From contig CALMML010000154.1 of NCBI GenBank assembly GCA_937868485.1, positions 1 through 50,279 of the forward strand: 50,279 bases of DNA. The letters are read 5' to 3'. The position numbers and the translations under genes were made by a program. The notes beneath the pieces were generated by a model that searched no databases, was not told the DNA's origin, and saw only the letters and a list, made by a program, of their open reading frames with translations. The DNA comes from an uncultured Myxococcales bacterium. GTDB taxonomy: Bacteria; Myxococcota_A; Polyangia; Palsa-1104; JAEUJZ01. Shown one piece after another: positions 3,369 through 16,042 of this stretch (the first letter of the stretch is position 1; each line of letters opens with the position of its first letter).

Positions 3369-4049
3369 TTAGGAAATCACTGGAAGCTTCACTTTTACGT
3401 CGGTGGGGGCGCCTTTTCGGAAGCGAAAATCACAGTGCGAGTCGCCTTGCGCAATCGTCTTGCTGCGCGCAAGTCCCCAGCCGAAGACCTCGCTGCCGAT
3501 GATGTCGGACTGACAGATGTATGGCGCAAAGTCCTGGGCGCCCACATCGTGCGCAAGCTGAGCAATCGCACAGCGACGATACGTGACCCCGTAGTCGAAC
3601 TGTCCGGGCTGCGCGGGTAGGTAGTCCACTTCCCAACCACCAACGGGAGACTGCTTGGACTGGGCGGCGAGACGCTTCGTCAGAAATCGCCACGGCGCTG
3701 AAAACATCGTCCACGACAGCAGCCACTTCGTCAGCTTCGACATCTTGGCAAAGCGCTGTCTCGTCGCTGCATCGCAGATCGGCCATACCTGCGCGGCGGA
3801 CATTCCCTGACGGTGAAGCACCAGATAGAGCGCAATGTAGATCGCTCCCCCGACGCTAAACGCCCGCATCTGCGGTCCGGGATCGGGCATCCGCTCAAGG
3901 AGTCGCGAAAACTCCGTCGGAAGCTCGGAAAGGACGGTCCGTGCGGCCTCGGCTGAAAGCGCTTTTTCGACGAGCGGTGAAAACTCCGCCTGCCAGCTGG
4001 CCAGCTCCGCGTGGGCTTGCTTGGACACGGACGACAGCATCTTCGACAT
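3369..4049 (-). CDS. L-2-amino-thiazoline-4-carboxylic acid hydrolase-like protein
   Basis: The C-terminal half shows the pattern of the ATC-hydrolase family: a CQSD element, then the block LARSKTIAQGDSHCDFRF, where the Gly-Asp-x-x-Cys-Asp-Phe core is the hallmark. The founding member opens a thiazoline ring on the way to L-cysteine. Many relatives are uncharacterised, so the substrate is open. The product is about 226 residues, soluble, with no signal peptide. I chose ATG 4049 because AAGGAG sits six bases upstream (4061-4056); the frame extends to 4202, but that extension is Arg-rich and unlike the family. The gene is transcribed away from the pseudo-protease gene and shares a 230-bp intergenic region with it. 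Confidence 0.8.
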   Translation of the reverse strand: MSKMLSSVSKQAHAELASWQAEFSPLVEKALSAEAARTVLSELPTEFSRLLERMPDPGPQMRAFSVGGAIYIALYLVLHRQGMSAAQVWPICDAATRQRFAKMSKLTKWLLSWTMFSAPWRFLTKRLAAQSKQSPVGGWEVDYLPAQPGQFDYGVTYRRCAIAQLAHDVGAQDFAPYICQSDIIGSEVFGWGLARSKTIAQGDSHCDFRFRKGAPTDVKVKLPVIS

Positions 4050-4173
4050 CGCTTGCTCCTTGCGCCGCATCAAGTGGTCTGGGACCGTGCGCCGTATGTT
4101 CATGATATCCGATGACTGTCCCGTCTCGGTTGTGACGAGCCCGACATTTCTTCCAATAGATCGGGTTACTTTG

Positions 4174-4193
4174 CGATACAGTCGCTTGTATCG
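4174..4193. promoter_or_regulatory. Inverted repeat in a divergent intergenic region (operator candidate)
   Basis: CGATACA (4174-4180) and TGTATCG (4187-4193) form a perfect 7-bp dyad with a 6-bp spacer. It lies between the divergent starts at 4049 and 4280, about where a dimeric repressor could control either gene. No regulator gene is adjacent, so the binding protein is unknown. Confidence 0.4.
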
Positions 4194-4279
4194 GAACGCC
4201 ATCTACGGCCTTCTTGTGCTTTGGTTCCCGGAGGTGTGTTTTGTCTAGCGGTGTTATAAGGCCCACGACTGCTCGCTCC

Positions 4280-6061
4280 ATGTTCCCGCTTCGTCGGGCG
4301 CGGGCTTACACGCTGTCTGCTCTTCTGTTTGTCTCGGGATCAGCGACGATCGCCTCTGCGCAGTCGGCTCCGGTCCAGCCTGCGGCACCAGCAGCTGCCG
4401 CACCGACGCCTGCTCCGGCAGCGACAGCGGCTCCGAAAGCCAAGCCTGTTGTGAAGCCGCCCGTTGCCAAGGCTCCGGTTGCAAAGACGGTGACAGGACC
4501 GAAGCCGCTGCCGCCTGCGCCGAAAGGTCCCGCGCTGAGCAAGTCCGAAGCCTATCAGCGAGCGGCTCCAGCGACGGTGTTTCTGATCGCCAAGGACGGC
4601 AATCGCTTCAACAGCGCACTCGGCGTCATCGTCAAGCCAAACGGCGTGGTCGTCAGTGATTCACGGCTGATGTCGGGCGTCGAAAAAGGCCAGGTCTACG
4701 CGTTTCAGTACGATCCGTCGTTTGCTGGCGACGAAGATCCGCTGATTTTTCTGCGCGCAAACCAGGCCAAAGCGCTGCCGGTTCAGGTGGTGCGAATGGA
4801 TGCGCCCAATCACTTGCTGCTGCTCCAGCTTCCAGAGCCGCCCGCGAAGCAGCCGTATAAGTCGCTCGATCTGTACGACGTGCGGTCGACGACCAGCGTC
4901 GGAGCGGACGTCATCGGGCTGCGGACGCACGGACGGCAGACGCTGGCGATGATGACCGGCTCGATCATGTCGATGCGTCCCGGTTCGATTGAAACCGATC
5001 CGCCGCTGACGATTGAGCACACGGGTGGACCGCTGCTATCAGCGACGGGGCGACTGCTGGGCATCGTGACGTTTTCGGACAAGTCGGTGGACACAGCTGG
5101 CGTGGCGCGTCCCGTCGAGCTGCTGAACAACCTGCTGACCGGAATGACGGGAACCCAGGTTGCGTCGCCATCGAATACAACGCCAGAGCCCGCCGCAGAG
5201 TCGCGCAACAGCGTCGAAGCGGTTCGGATTGCACTCGGCAATGCACTGGCGCAGAAGATGGACAAGCGTCCGGCGCTGATCCTGCACAGCGAGTTCATTC
5301 ACTCGATGGCGATGCGCGGTCGGGTTCCGCTGCGAGACCTCGAGTCGATTGAGTTTCTAAACGGACTCATTGCGACGGTGACCAAGGACAGCCCAGGCAA
5401 GTCCAAGGTGGTCGCGGAGCTGTTTCCGCTGCTGGTGACCGATCGGAAGGGCCGCGCGTACCGTCGGGAAGGAACCAAGTACAACATGGTTCCGACGAGC
5501 GACTTCGGCACCGTCGCCATCGACGACTCAAACGGAATGCTGTTTACGACGGACAGCAAGCGCAACCTGATCTACTACGATGCCGAGGGCAAGAGCTGGC
5601 GTCCGACGCACATCTCGCCGGTTTCGCAAGTTGGTGTGACGGGCGGAAAGATCTTTGCGCTGCTCGAAGACGGACGGCTGATGACGTCGAGCTTCGACGG
5701 AAAAGACTCGCTTCAGCTGTGGCCGAAGCTCATCAAGTCGGGCAACGTCATGGCGTCGCAAGGCGTGATGTATCTGTTCGACGGAGACAAGATCTTCCGG
5801 TATCGCAATGGCTCGTGGGATAACAAGCTCAAGCCAATTGCGTTTGCGATGCAGCAGCTGGTGATGCGTGGCGACGGCTACTACGGACTGGATCTAAACG
5901 GTCGCGTGTTTTCGTCAGTGGCGCAGCGCTACATCGATCGCGATGCCAACATCTTCAAGCTGTGGGCGATTGGTCGCGACTTGATGGTCATCACCAAAGA
6001 CAACCTGCGCTTCTATTACTCCGTCGATGAGGATCAGTGGCGGCCGTGGACGCAGTGGTAA
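4280..6061 (+). CDS. Exported trypsin-fold pseudo-protease with C-terminal propeller-like repeats
   Basis: From ATG 4280 the product (593 residues) has a signal peptide (Arg-rich start, hydrophobic core, cut near ASAQS) followed by an Ala/Pro/Lys linker of about 70 residues. Residues 90-285 resemble an HtrA/trypsin fold, but the catalytic positions are altered. The strand that normally carries the histidine reads VVVSDSRLMSGV, and the GNSGGPL block reads EHTGGPLLS, with Thr for Ser. I infer it is not a protease. The second half contains repeated short beta motifs (for example DSNGMLFTTDSKRNLIYYD) suggestive of a beta-propeller. A TTG at 4241 preceded by GGAGGTG is a credible longer start. The stop overlaps the start of the ndh-like gene, suggesting coupling. 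Confidence 0.8.
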   Translation: MFPLRRARAYTLSALLFVSGSATIASAQSAPVQPAAPAAAAPTPAPAATAAPKAKPVVKPPVAKAPVAKTVTGPKPLPPAPKGPALSKSEAYQRAAPATVFLIAKDGNRFNSALGVIVKPNGVVVSDSRLMSGVEKGQVYAFQYDPSFAGDEDPLIFLRANQAKALPVQVVRMDAPNHLLLLQLPEPPAKQPYKSLDLYDVRSTTSVGADVIGLRTHGRQTLAMMTGSIMSMRPGSIETDPPLTIEHTGGPLLSATGRLLGIVTFSDKSVDTAGVARPVELLNNLLTGMTGTQVASPSNTTPEPAAESRNSVEAVRIALGNALAQKMDKRPALILHSEFIHSMAMRGRVPLRDLESIEFLNGLIATVTKDSPGKSKVVAELFPLLVTDRKGRAYRREGTKYNMVPTSDFGTVAIDDSNGMLFTTDSKRNLIYYDAEGKSWRPTHISPVSQVGVTGGKIFALLEDGRLMTSSFDGKDSLQLWPKLIKSGNVMASQGVMYLFDGDKIFRYRNGSWDNKLKPIAFAMQQLVMRGDGYYGLDLNGRVFSSVAQRYIDRDANIFKLWAIGRDLMVITKDNLRFYYSVDEDQWRPWTQW

Positions 6062-7455
6062 GAAAAGACGCGCTCCCGCACGTCGTCATCATTGGTGGCG
6101 GCTTTGGCGGTCTGACGGCAGCCAAGGAGCTGGACGGAGCGCGCGTTCGCGTCACGCTGATTGATCGCATCAACCATCACCTGTTTCAGCCGCTGCTGTA
6201 CCAAGTCGCGATGGCGGGTCTGTCGCCGGCTGATATCGCTGCGCCGATTCGCTCGGTGGTGCGGTTTCAGCCGAATGTGAGCGTCCTGCTCGCGGAAGTC
6301 CAAGACATCGATCCGACGGAAAAGCGGGTCAAGCTCGATCGCGGAGAGCTTCACTACGACTATCTGATCGTCGCTGCGGGCGCGCAAAATCACTACTTTG
6401 GACACGATGAGTGGGCCAAGTACGCGGTTGGGCTCAAAGACATTGATGATGCCGTCGAGGTTCGTCGGCGTGTGCTGCTGGCATTTGAAGCGGCAGAGCG
6501 CACCGTCGATCCGGCAGAGCGTGAGCGTCTGTTGACCTTCGTGGTCGTCGGTGGTGGACCCACTGGCGTCGAGCTGGCAGGTGCGCTGGGTGAGCTGTCT
6601 CGTCACGTCTTGGCGCGTGACTTTCGCAACATCAATCCCGCGCAGTCCAAGATCATTCTTATCGAGGGTGGCACGCGCATTCTCAGCTCGTTTCCCGAGC
6701 ACCTGTCGATGCGTGCGGTGATTGATCTGGGTCAGCTGGGCGTCGAGGTTCGCACCGGACTTCGGGTCACGCGCATTGATGGTCGCGGCGTCGAAGCCAG
6801 CGGTAAGCAGATTCCGACAGCGACGGTGCTGTGGGCGGCGGGTGTACGAGGATCGCCCCTTGCGGGCAAGCTCGGCGGAGAAGTCGATCGTCAGGGTCGC
6901 GTCGTCGTGCAGCCTGACTTGTCGGTGGGCTCGCGTCGCGAAGTGTTTGCCATCGGTGACATGGCGGCGTTTCTGCATCAAGACGGAAAGCCACTTCCTG
7001 GTGTCAGTCCCGTCGCGATTCAGCAAGCGAAGCATGTGGTGCAGAACCTCTGCGCGGATCTCGATGGACACGAGCGCACGCCGTTTGTCTACGTCGACAA
7101 AGGCAGCATGGCGACCATCGGACGCGCGGCTGCGATTGCGCACATTGGACGGATTCAGATTGGCGGATTTTTGGCGTGGATGCTGTGGCTGCTCGTCCAC
7201 ATTTTCTTTCTGATTACGTTCCGAAACCGCGTCGCTGTGCTGATGAACTGGGCGTATCAGTACTTCACGTATAAGCGTGGCGCGCGGCTCATCACGGGAC
7301 ACCGACTGAAAGCAGGCGCGGAATCGGATGTTGCCATCGCTGCGCTGCCTCGGAGCGCACTTACGGCTGCGGTCGTCGGTTCGCCAGATCCGTCAGCGAG
7401 CAGTTCAGCAGCGTCGGGAACGGGTCCGCTTCCGGTCCCTCGCTCCGGCGGATAA
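6037..7455 (+). CDS. ndh: Type II NADH:quinone oxidoreductase
   Basis: A single-subunit, non-proton-pumping NADH dehydrogenase that passes electrons from NADH to quinone via FAD at the inner membrane face. The FAD-binding GGGFGG motif is at residues 20-25, the NADH-binding GGGPTG at 172-177, and the second FAD contact AIGDMA near 306. A hydrophobic segment near 375-395 (AWMLWLLVHIFFLITF) should anchor it to the membrane. GTG 6037 is four bases after GAGGA; GTG codons at 6046 and 6055 are alternatives. It overlaps the upstream gene by 25 bp. The last 40 residues are a low-complexity Ser/Ala/Pro tail beyond the usual family end, and they overlap the 3' end of the opposite-strand gene by 95 bp. 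Confidence 0.93.
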   Translation: MAAVDAVVRKDALPHVVIIGGGFGGLTAAKELDGARVRVTLIDRINHHLFQPLLYQVAMAGLSPADIAAPIRSVVRFQPNVSVLLAEVQDIDPTEKRVKLDRGELHYDYLIVAAGAQNHYFGHDEWAKYAVGLKDIDDAVEVRRRVLLAFEAAERTVDPAERERLLTFVVVGGGPTGVELAGALGELSRHVLARDFRNINPAQSKIILIEGGTRILSSFPEHLSMRAVIDLGQLGVEVRTGLRVTRIDGRGVEASGKQIPTATVLWAAGVRGSPLAGKLGGEVDRQGRVVVQPDLSVGSRREVFAIGDMAAFLHQDGKPLPGVSPVAIQQAKHVVQNLCADLDGHERTPFVYVDKGSMATIGRAAAIAHIGRIQIGGFLAWMLWLLVHIFFLITFRNRVAVLMNWAYQYFTYKRGARLITGHRLKAGAESDVAIAALPRSALTAAVVGSPDPSASSSAASGTGPLPVPRSGG

Positions 7456-13891: not shown

Positions 13892-16042
13892 TTAGTGCTT
13901 CGTCGCTGCGCCAGCGGACGCGGCCAAGCTTGCGGCCTGTTGCAGCTCTTTTAAGAGCGGCTGCGCGTTGTAGATGCCCTTGAGCGACTCAATCAGCCCC
14001 GCCGAGTGAACCGACACCGCCCGATTCGCCGTGTCGTCATAGAAAAACACACCGCCAAGCGACTGCATGTTTCCGTCGAACACCACACCGACCACCTGCG
14101 CATCGCGGTTGAGCACTGGACTTCCCGAGTTGCCACCGATGATGTCGAGCGTGCTCACAAAGTTCAGCGGCGTCGACGGCTTTAACCGACCTTTCGCAGC
14201 CAGCCATGATCCGGGCAGCACAAACGGCTCGCGTCCTGTGTGACGGTCAAACGCACCGCCGAGCAGCGTAATCGGCGCCAGCTCTTGTCCCAGATCTTTG
14301 TAGCCACGCACCGTTCCGTACGTCACGCGCAGCGAAAACGTCGCATCGGGATACACCGACGTGCCTTGCACCGCGAACAGCGCTTGCGCGACCAGCTCAG
14401 AGTTCTTTTTGACCACCGACTCGACGTTGTCTTGATAGAGCTTGCGAATCAGCCGCGACTGTCCGTCGACCGCACGCGCAAAGCGAATCATCGGGTCCGT
14501 CGAAGCCGCCGTCGCTTTGATGCCTCCGTCCCACAGCGCCTTGCGCACCGACGCATCACCCAGCCGCGAACCGTTTACCAGGTTGCGCGCAATCTCGTCG
14601 GGAGAATACGGTCCAAACGTCTCTTTGATAAACGGATGATTCGGCCCGAGCGCCTCGCGCAGCTTGTGCAGCGAATACGACAGCTGAAGGATCTCCAGCT
14701 GCGGATACAGCGTCGAGTGAGCCAGCAGCGTGTGCGACATCGACAAAAGCGCCGAGTCGCGGAACTCTCCCAGACGCTGCTCCGACGGCTTTTGCCTCTC
14801 TTCTGCGCCCCGTACAAGCTGCCGCGCATAGTGAAACAGCGTCGAATGAAACGCGCGTCCCACCTCGAGCAGCGCGTGCTCTTTGTAGATCTTGCGCAGC
14901 TCATCTTGCGAGCGCGACAGCGCATCCCACGCCCCACCAAAGCGCTTTTGCCAGTCGGGATTTTGCGCCACCTGCGATCGCAGCGCTTCTTCTGACGCGC
15001 GCTTGGCCAGCAGAAAGTTGCGGTTCGCCAGCGTCTCTTGCTGACCGAGCAGCGACTTGTACCAGTTTTCTACGTCGTAGAGCGGCTCTGTGCTGATGCG
15101 CTTTTGCTCCGGCCCCATCTTCGCAAACTCGAGCAAGTGCCCGCGCAGCTCCGCCAGATACAAGAGCAGCTCGGGATTGGCCACGTCGCGCAGCAGCTCC
15201 AGCTGAGACACCGTCATCAGACGCTGCGTCGAGCCTGGATTTCCCGTCGAAAACACCAGATCGCCCGCAGCAACGCCCGTTGGACTGACGGGAAAGTAGT
15301 TGGTCGTCTTCAGCGGCTGTCCGTTTTCATAGACCCGCAGAAACGACACATCCAGTGAGTAGCGCGGATAGCTGAAGTTATCGGGATCGCCGCCAAAGCG
15401 TGCAGTTCCCGTCTCGGGCAAGAACACCAGCCGAACATCGGAATAGCGCTTGTACTTATATAGGTGGTACTTGCCACCGTGATACAGCGAGACCACATCA
15501 CAGCGCAGCTTGGTGCTGCTCGCGCAGGCCGTCTCGATGTTGCTGATCTCTCGTCGCAGCGCGCTGCCAAACTCGGCATCGGGAAGACCGCTCGTCGCAG
15601 CTTGAAGCTTTGCCGTCACGTCTTCAATGTCTTGTAGCTGGTTTAGCTCCATCGACGAGCACTTCAGCTCACTTGCGGGCGTCGCTGCGTAAAAGCCGGT
15701 GCGGTTGAGATCCCGTGACGGAGACGACTGCTCGACGATGCACTCGCTGATGCAGTGATGGTTGCTCAGCACCAGACCTTGATCCGACACAAACGCGCCC
15801 GAGCAGCCGTCCGCCAGGCGCAGCGACGCAAGCTGGACTTTGCGAAGCCACTCATCGGTCGCATTGAAGCCGTACTTGCGCAGGATCCGCTCCCGAGGAA
15901 ACTCCGTCAGCGTCCACATTCCTTCGTCGCTACGTCCTTGCGATGCGTACAGCGATAGAAGGAGCGCGCAGCCAACGCCAACGACACGAGAAGACCCGGC
16001 TCGTGAGTGGCCGACGGGCGGCAGATGCGGAGCGGTGGACAT
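13892..16042 (-). CDS. S46-family dipeptidyl-peptidase (DPP7-like)
   Basis: An exported serine exopeptidase of family S46, which removes N-terminal dipeptides from peptides and is known as DPP7/DPP11. The 716-residue length fits. A signal peptide ends about residue 37, followed by the family N-terminus DEGMW. The catalytic His lies in SNHHC (94-97), the Asp in FGGDPDNFSYPR, and the Ser in GGNSGSPVLN. Eighteen residues after the Ser the sequence reads FDGN. Gly at this position is the DPP7 type (hydrophobic P1), whereas DPP11 has Arg for acidic P1; this is from family knowledge, not measured. AGGAGG precedes ATG 16042. It leads a two-gene operon with the YkgJ-type gene. Confidence 0.94.
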   Translation of the reverse strand: MSTAPHLPPVGHSRAGSSRVVGVGCALLLSLYASQGRSDEGMWTLTEFPRERILRKYGFNATDEWLRKVQLASLRLADGCSGAFVSDQGLVLSNHHCISECIVEQSSPSRDLNRTGFYAATPASELKCSSMELNQLQDIEDVTAKLQAATSGLPDAEFGSALRREISNIETACASSTKLRCDVVSLYHGGKYHLYKYKRYSDVRLVFLPETGTARFGGDPDNFSYPRYSLDVSFLRVYENGQPLKTTNYFPVSPTGVAAGDLVFSTGNPGSTQRLMTVSQLELLRDVANPELLLYLAELRGHLLEFAKMGPEQKRISTEPLYDVENWYKSLLGQQETLANRNFLLAKRASEEALRSQVAQNPDWQKRFGGAWDALSRSQDELRKIYKEHALLEVGRAFHSTLFHYARQLVRGAEERQKPSEQRLGEFRDSALLSMSHTLLAHSTLYPQLEILQLSYSLHKLREALGPNHPFIKETFGPYSPDEIARNLVNGSRLGDASVRKALWDGGIKATAASTDPMIRFARAVDGQSRLIRKLYQDNVESVVKKNSELVAQALFAVQGTSVYPDATFSLRVTYGTVRGYKDLGQELAPITLLGGAFDRHTGREPFVLPGSWLAAKGRLKPSTPLNFVSTLDIIGGNSGSPVLNRDAQVVGVVFDGNMQSLGGVFFYDDTANRAVSVHSAGLIESLKGIYNAQPLLKELQQAASLAASAGAATKH

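Follow-up and report, generated by a model that had tools for sequence, protein, structure and literature searches.

A catalytically depleted HtrA-like domain, joined to a probable propeller and kept under selection, in an uncultured Myxococcales bacterium

The gene P0001 raises the question of why a protein built like an HtrA protease would be kept by the cell after the residues that cut have been replaced. It lies in a window (the whole stretch of DNA that was analysed, 50,279 nucleotides of contig CALMML010000154.1 from an uncultured Myxococcales bacterium), and the host genome (G000) has 6.36 Mb and is 99.7% complete. A sequence-only reading of the window had described the product as an exported, inactive protease fold joined to a propeller-like half and coupled to ndh, and had proposed that this unusual architecture may serve as a binding scaffold. 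The first part of the gene is laid out as follows.

4280 to 6061, plus strand: coding sequence of P0001, a fusion of a pseudo-HtrA with a propeller, stop included (4280 to 6058 without the stop); 593 amino acids, kept in four relatives
4280 to 4360, plus strand: probable signal peptide, residues 1–27, read from the sequence alone; the hydrophobic N-terminal stretch is also present in the relatives
4361 to 4537, plus strand: Pro/Ala/Lys-rich linker, residues 28–86, with the lowest conservation in P0001
4538 to 5149, plus strand: pseudo-trypsin domain of the HtrA/S1C type, residues 87–290, recognised by Pfam, alignment and profile–profile matches

The open reading frame is a genuine gene, because it is kept in the four relatives (94, 83, 56, and 50% identity) and its pairwise dN/dS is far below 1 in the three closest genomes. 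The copy on contig JAEUKB010000017.1 is 92% identical over its best segment. Besides the start at 4280, an in-frame TTG at 4214 is another possible start. The N-terminus reads as a hydrophobic stretch ending in ASA/Q, and P0001 is probably exported to the periplasm. Upstream of the fusion lies a divergent gene with an ATC_hydrolase domain (3369–4202, minus strand), which is kept at the G002 locus, and an ordinary Peptidase S46 gene (13892–16042, minus strand; E 1.7e-199) is a second trypsin-type peptidase nearby.

The Pfam family Trypsin_2 matched P0001 with an E-value of 2.2e-5 and 25.7 bits, just below the family cut-off of 27.6. In what follows, a protein is called active when the triad is present in its sequence, so that activity is read from the triad, and the triad-less fusions of the host's family are called dead. 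Profile–profile comparison related the five dead trypsin halves to those of eight active fusions (E 3.5e-33) and to four canonical HtrAs, two of them with incomplete rows (E 1.9e-8, probability 95%); the control, a dead trypsin half against its own C-terminal half (C-half), gave E 0.14. The trypsin/HtrA scaffold that had been seen in the first half is thus borne out. The triad columns were taken from an alignment of 19 trypsin halves, five from dead fusions and 14 others (ten fusions and four proteases of the L002 type described below), and the corresponding codons of P0001 are these.

4664 to 4666, plus strand: Arg129 at the catalytic His column (SDSRLMSG); Arg in all five dead fusions of the family, His in all 14 other rows
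4811 to 4813, plus strand: His178 at the catalytic Asp column; His in four and Arg in one of the five dead rows, Asp in all 14 others
5021 to 5023, plus strand: Thr248 at the catalytic Ser column (EHTGGPLLS); Thr in three, Ser in one and Ala in one of the five dead rows, Ser in all 14 others

Both motifs singled out in the sequence-only reading therefore fall on catalytic columns, and the Asp column, which that reading had left aside, is replaced as well. Two further changes mark the dead rows: Glu or Asp replaces the Gly two positions before the catalytic Ser, part of the oxyanion region, and in all five the GNP motif has Arg-Thr instead of Gly-Asn. A triad at other positions had been named as one finding that would overturn the claim. 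No His is invariant across the trypsin halves of the five dead fusions, and a conserved triad elsewhere in the domain is thereby ruled out. Nor did Pfam give any match to a PDZ domain in P0001 at E-values up to 10, and none was found at E 0.01 in two f36 fusions, one f60 fusion and one f42 fusion (these being groups of active fusions outside the host's family). P0001 thus shares with the HtrA/Do proteases of S1C (DegP, DegQ, DegS, HhoA) the trypsin-type domain, a probable export and a recognisable GGPLL region, whereas it differs from them in having neither triad nor detectable PDZ domain, in carrying a probable propeller instead, and in having about 20 extra residues inserted ahead of the Asp column. 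Two tandem HtrA-like proteins on another contig (L011 and L020, G012:C447; frames of 516 and 540 amino acids) have very similar protease halves with triad motifs present, and before the Asp column they carry an insert with some resemblance to the one in the fusion family.

The C-half comprises two further features.

5195 to 5425, plus strand: helical linker, residues 306–382, which aligns with the f36 fusions and with the C-half-only gene of G004; its helices come solely from a model of low confidence
5426 to 6058, plus strand: probable beta-propeller, residues 383–593, read from profile matches and self-alignment; about six repeats of 36 residues, the blade number following from the repeat offset

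When a 14-row profile of the C-half was compared with solved structures, the best matches were the PQQ-type propellers 7evf, 7eq5, and 7dxn (E 7e-9 to 2e-8), followed by BamB from E 5e-4, and these PQQ-type and BamB matches take in just part of the profile. Pfam matches among the 14 members were weak, with DUF6242 in five and PQQ_2, Tectonin, and Hyd_WA in four each. Alignment of the C-half with itself gave repeat offsets of 72 (E 1.8e-4, hhalign probability 49%) and 145 (E 1.8e-3, probability 15%), and all five column-shuffled controls stayed at E 0.25 or worse. The two offsets would correspond to two and four blades of 36 residues, and at this spacing the 211 residues would accommodate about six blades. 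The C-half is thus probably a helical linker followed by a repeat-built, six-bladed propeller. P0001 resembles the PQQ-type and BamB propellers in its repeat profile and differs in the partial match and in its roughly six, apparently short blades. The repeated strands from which a propeller had been suspected are therefore backed by the profile matches and by the 72/145 repeats, with the fold itself predicted. The structure prediction that had been suggested as a check spoke neither for nor against it: AlphaFold2, run on residues 84–593 and on the C-half, each with a two-row alignment, gave a mean pLDDT of 35.4 and 46.6, respectively.

The fusion is present in five of the six genomes available from the host's family, three of which belong to one genus, and all five have lost the triad. 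The sixth, G004 (96% complete), encodes only the C-half, preceded by a signal-like start of its own, and gave no match to the protease half. Searches with the C-half profile found 7 of 289 genomes in the host's class, namely the six of the host's family and G259, the latter weakly; this G259 hit and a further C-half match in G004 lie in repeat proteins with no trypsin motif by eye and were rejected as members. In a sample of the phylum, 14 of 377 genomes matched, four from the host's family and ten from other classes. These ten, which belong to two classes, are all fusions with an intact triad. Eight of them (seven f36 and one f60) have the insert and the helical linker in common with P0001, and the other two (f42 and f44) are more distant; the f42 fusion has a TonB_C-like end just below the cut-off of that family. 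Dead and active fusions also have homologous C-halves (E 4.6e-42). P0001 therefore has every trait of the HtrA–propeller proteins, that is, an insert-bearing trypsin half, a helical linker and a propeller in one chain, and both of its halves are homologous to those of active fusions in the same domain order. This answers two points of the sequence-only reading in the negative: homologues do not always lack the triad, and the architecture is not unusual in the sense of being unique.

The fusion was found in 8 of 52 genomes of the class of f36 and f60 and in 2 of 71 genomes of the class of f42 and f44, a scattered distribution that hints at transfer or at many losses. No relatives of P0001 were found in viral contigs or in the plasmid collection, and L024, in which the match was limited to residues 41–97 (46% identity), was left out as a relative. 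One trypsin–propeller fusion gene (L084:3356-6292, minus strand), which keeps the triad and has a TonB_C-like end slightly below the cut-off, adjoins a gene whose product has a BsuPI-type proteinase-inhibitor domain. No gene family was common to the loci of the active fusions among the ten nearby genes compared (three in G301, two in G410, one in G309, one in G351, and three in G503).

A domain with all three catalytic residues changed in the window copy, and with Glu or Asp two positions before the Ser column, could be that of a protease decaying without function. We consider this hardly tenable. None of the five genomes has a stop inside the matched frame, and the dead trypsin half gave dN/dS values of 0.029 for G000–G002, 0.072 for G000–G001, and 0.072 for G002–G001 (bootstrap intervals 0.011–0.050, 0.042–0.107, and 0.037–0.115, respectively), which are pairwise NG86 estimates from three overlapping pairs, some with dS near 1. 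The propeller gave 0.066, 0.147, and 0.109 for the same pairs, and the trypsin half was lower in 96, 97, and 87% of the bootstraps (150 each). It was also lower than the L002-type protease in both comparisons made (0.053 and 0.140). For ndh the value was 0.077 in one comparison, and for residues 1–86 of P0001 it was 0.15–0.19. The dead trypsin half is therefore under strong purifying selection, and at a dN/dS of 0.03–0.07 P0001 is a functional pseudoenzyme rather than a decaying gene; a domain that has no means of cutting and yet is tightly kept has another job. Decay was dropped as an explanation on the intact frames and these values.

The five dead rows form one clade (support 100/100), so a single loss of the triad suffices, and most simply the triad was lost once in the host's family. 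An HtrA–propeller family with no detectable PDZ domains thus appears to have given rise to one dead branch. The deeper order in the tree of 28 rows is unsettled, with long branches flagged: the active fusions do not form a single clade, the L002-type proteases group with a support of just 60/43, and none of the three groupings tested for the dead domain was rejected (AU p 0.26, 0.11, and 0.30), the first two placing it nearer to the L002 type and to the active fusions, respectively. The ratio of trypsin-half to C-half distances, computed for the same 13 taxa, was 0.44 within f36 (21 pairs) and 0.28 between f36 and f60 (7 pairs), compared with 0.81 between the dead branch and f36 (35 pairs) and 0.75 within the dead branch (10 pairs). 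This faster change of the trypsin half relative to its own C-half speaks for decay; the ratios indicate that losing the triad was accompanied by a lasting, about two-fold relative speed-up of the trypsin half rather than by a burst.

Downstream of P0001, the window holds two features that recur at the other fusion loci.

6055 to 7455, plus strand: ndh, encoding a dehydrogenase of the NDH-2 type; it begins at a presumed GTG that overlaps the fusion's stop codon
7361 to 7969, minus strand: convergent open reading frame after ndh with no Pfam match; a similar frame is present at the other four fusion loci (32–70% identity)

The coupling to ndh noted from the window holds across the family, since ndh is the next gene downstream in all five fusion genomes. 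Its presumed GTG overlaps the stop of the fusion in G000, G001, and G002, and the first ATG follows the stop by 36 nt in G005 and 27 nt in G003. P0001 might serve the adjoining dehydrogenase, helping from the periplasm to assemble or regulate it, and the distribution of ndh has some bearing on this: G004, the sole family genome without the dead half, gave no ndh match at E 1e-20, and an ndh match was found in 5 of the 10 active-fusion genomes, each time on a different contig from the fusion. However, ndh and the dead half are missing together in one genome only, and the assemblies are fragmented. NDH-2 works on the cytoplasmic side of the membrane, so that direct contact with P0001 is unlikely, and NDH-2 is not known to need a periplasmic factor. 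A service to NDH-2 is thus doubtful in our judgement. In G004, the C-half-only gene (L032:7332-9967) is followed after 5 nt by the ATG of a DAO-family flavoprotein gene; this pairing of the C-half or fusion with a flavoprotein gene (DAO family in G004, NDH-2 elsewhere) may be due to chance.

Four of the five fusion genomes (G000–G003) also encode the L002-type protease, which in G000 has 382 amino acids, an intact triad and no propeller. No such gene was found in G005 (60% complete), where the matches were other HtrAs and the fusion, or in G004, where they were other HtrAs. In seven f36 genomes, the best match to L002 was the active fusion itself (43–49% identity). No similarity was seen between the C-terminal part of the L002-type protein and the fusion's C-half. 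A protease without a propeller from another genome (L061, G503; frame of 258 amino acids) groups with the L002 type in the tree; members lacking the propeller thus also exist outside the host's family. What links L002 and the fusion is that they occur together within a small family of 6 genomes, 3 of them from the same genus.

With a probability only slightly above one half, we propose that P0001 is a non-catalytic binding or regulatory partner in periplasmic protein quality control, which would gate or feed its active L002-type relative. The propeller would stand where other HtrAs have their PDZ domains, as it appears to do in the active family elsewhere. After the triad was lost in the host's family, the remodelled domain would have been held by purifying selection, and the propeller together with the remodelled cleft may hold clients or partner proteins in the periplasm. 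P0001 might then shield its clients, or it might hand them to, or gate, the active L002-type HtrA that has no propeller of its own. Since P0001 is head-to-tail with ndh, its expression may follow the respiratory state. A more specific and rather improbable version is that an ancestral one-chain protease with a substrate-recognition propeller was split into an active L002-type enzyme and a dead, propeller-bearing protein, the latter recruiting substrates for the former or switching it on. If this were true, a protease and a pseudoprotease would have become a pair for a second time, independently of MamE and MamO, while sister classes would still have the one-chain form.

Two dead HtrA relatives offer precedents. 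According to the available part of PMC4794232, MamO is required for proteolysis by the active MamE and binds metal with the contribution of two His. P0001 is like MamO in that it is an HtrA relative that presumably has no protease activity, that in the window copy Thr takes the place of the catalytic Ser, and that a putatively active relative is encoded in the same genome. MamO was also the best match among the NCBIfam models, yet with 21.3 bits against a cut-off of 800. That the cleft region of P0001 has turned into a metal site of this kind is nevertheless very unlikely, and the idea was dropped: as far as that source goes, the site of MamO uses two His, whereas no His column is invariant in the five dead domains, and MamO has a TauE-like membrane domain, whereas P0001 has the propeller and no Pfam match to such a domain at E-values up to 10. 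PflC of the Campylobacter flagellar motor, as described in the accessible part of PMC12222027, is a dead HtrA-like protein that forms a structural lattice. P0001 shares with it the HtrA fold, the lost triad and, conceivably, a non-enzymatic co-option, so that it could be a pure structural scaffold, its dead domain being a building block of an envelope assembly with no tie to proteolysis; the Pro/Ala-rich linker and the propeller would suit a tethered adaptor. We regard this as unlikely, because no assembly gene is common to the fusion loci, whose shared neighbours found were ndh and the convergent frame, and because P0001 has no PDZ domain, whereas PflC keeps two PDZ-like domains in its motor lattice, as far as that source describes it; P0001 further differs in its probable propeller and in having ndh next to it. 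P0001 thus resembles MamO and PflC as a retained dead HtrA but belongs to neither.

In the open-licence literature, judged by titles and the beginnings of abstracts, no paper on the HtrA–propeller architecture was found, and none appeared in the passages available from PMC6411480 and PMC9221053. By titles and abstracts, dead bacterial HtrAs are little described there: besides MamO and PflC, a paper on a Clavibacter effector uses the word. An HtrA design in which a propeller replaces the PDZ domains is relevant to the way such enzymes select their substrates. A single phylum gives the series of a one-chain protease with a full triad, a dead fusion and a C-half alone, and the step from enzyme to non-enzyme is therefore open to study on natural relatives. 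Since all three cutting residues are lost, selection is strong, and relatives elsewhere in the phylum have the same build with the triad intact, P0001 looks like a protease that has been recycled into a binding or regulatory part.
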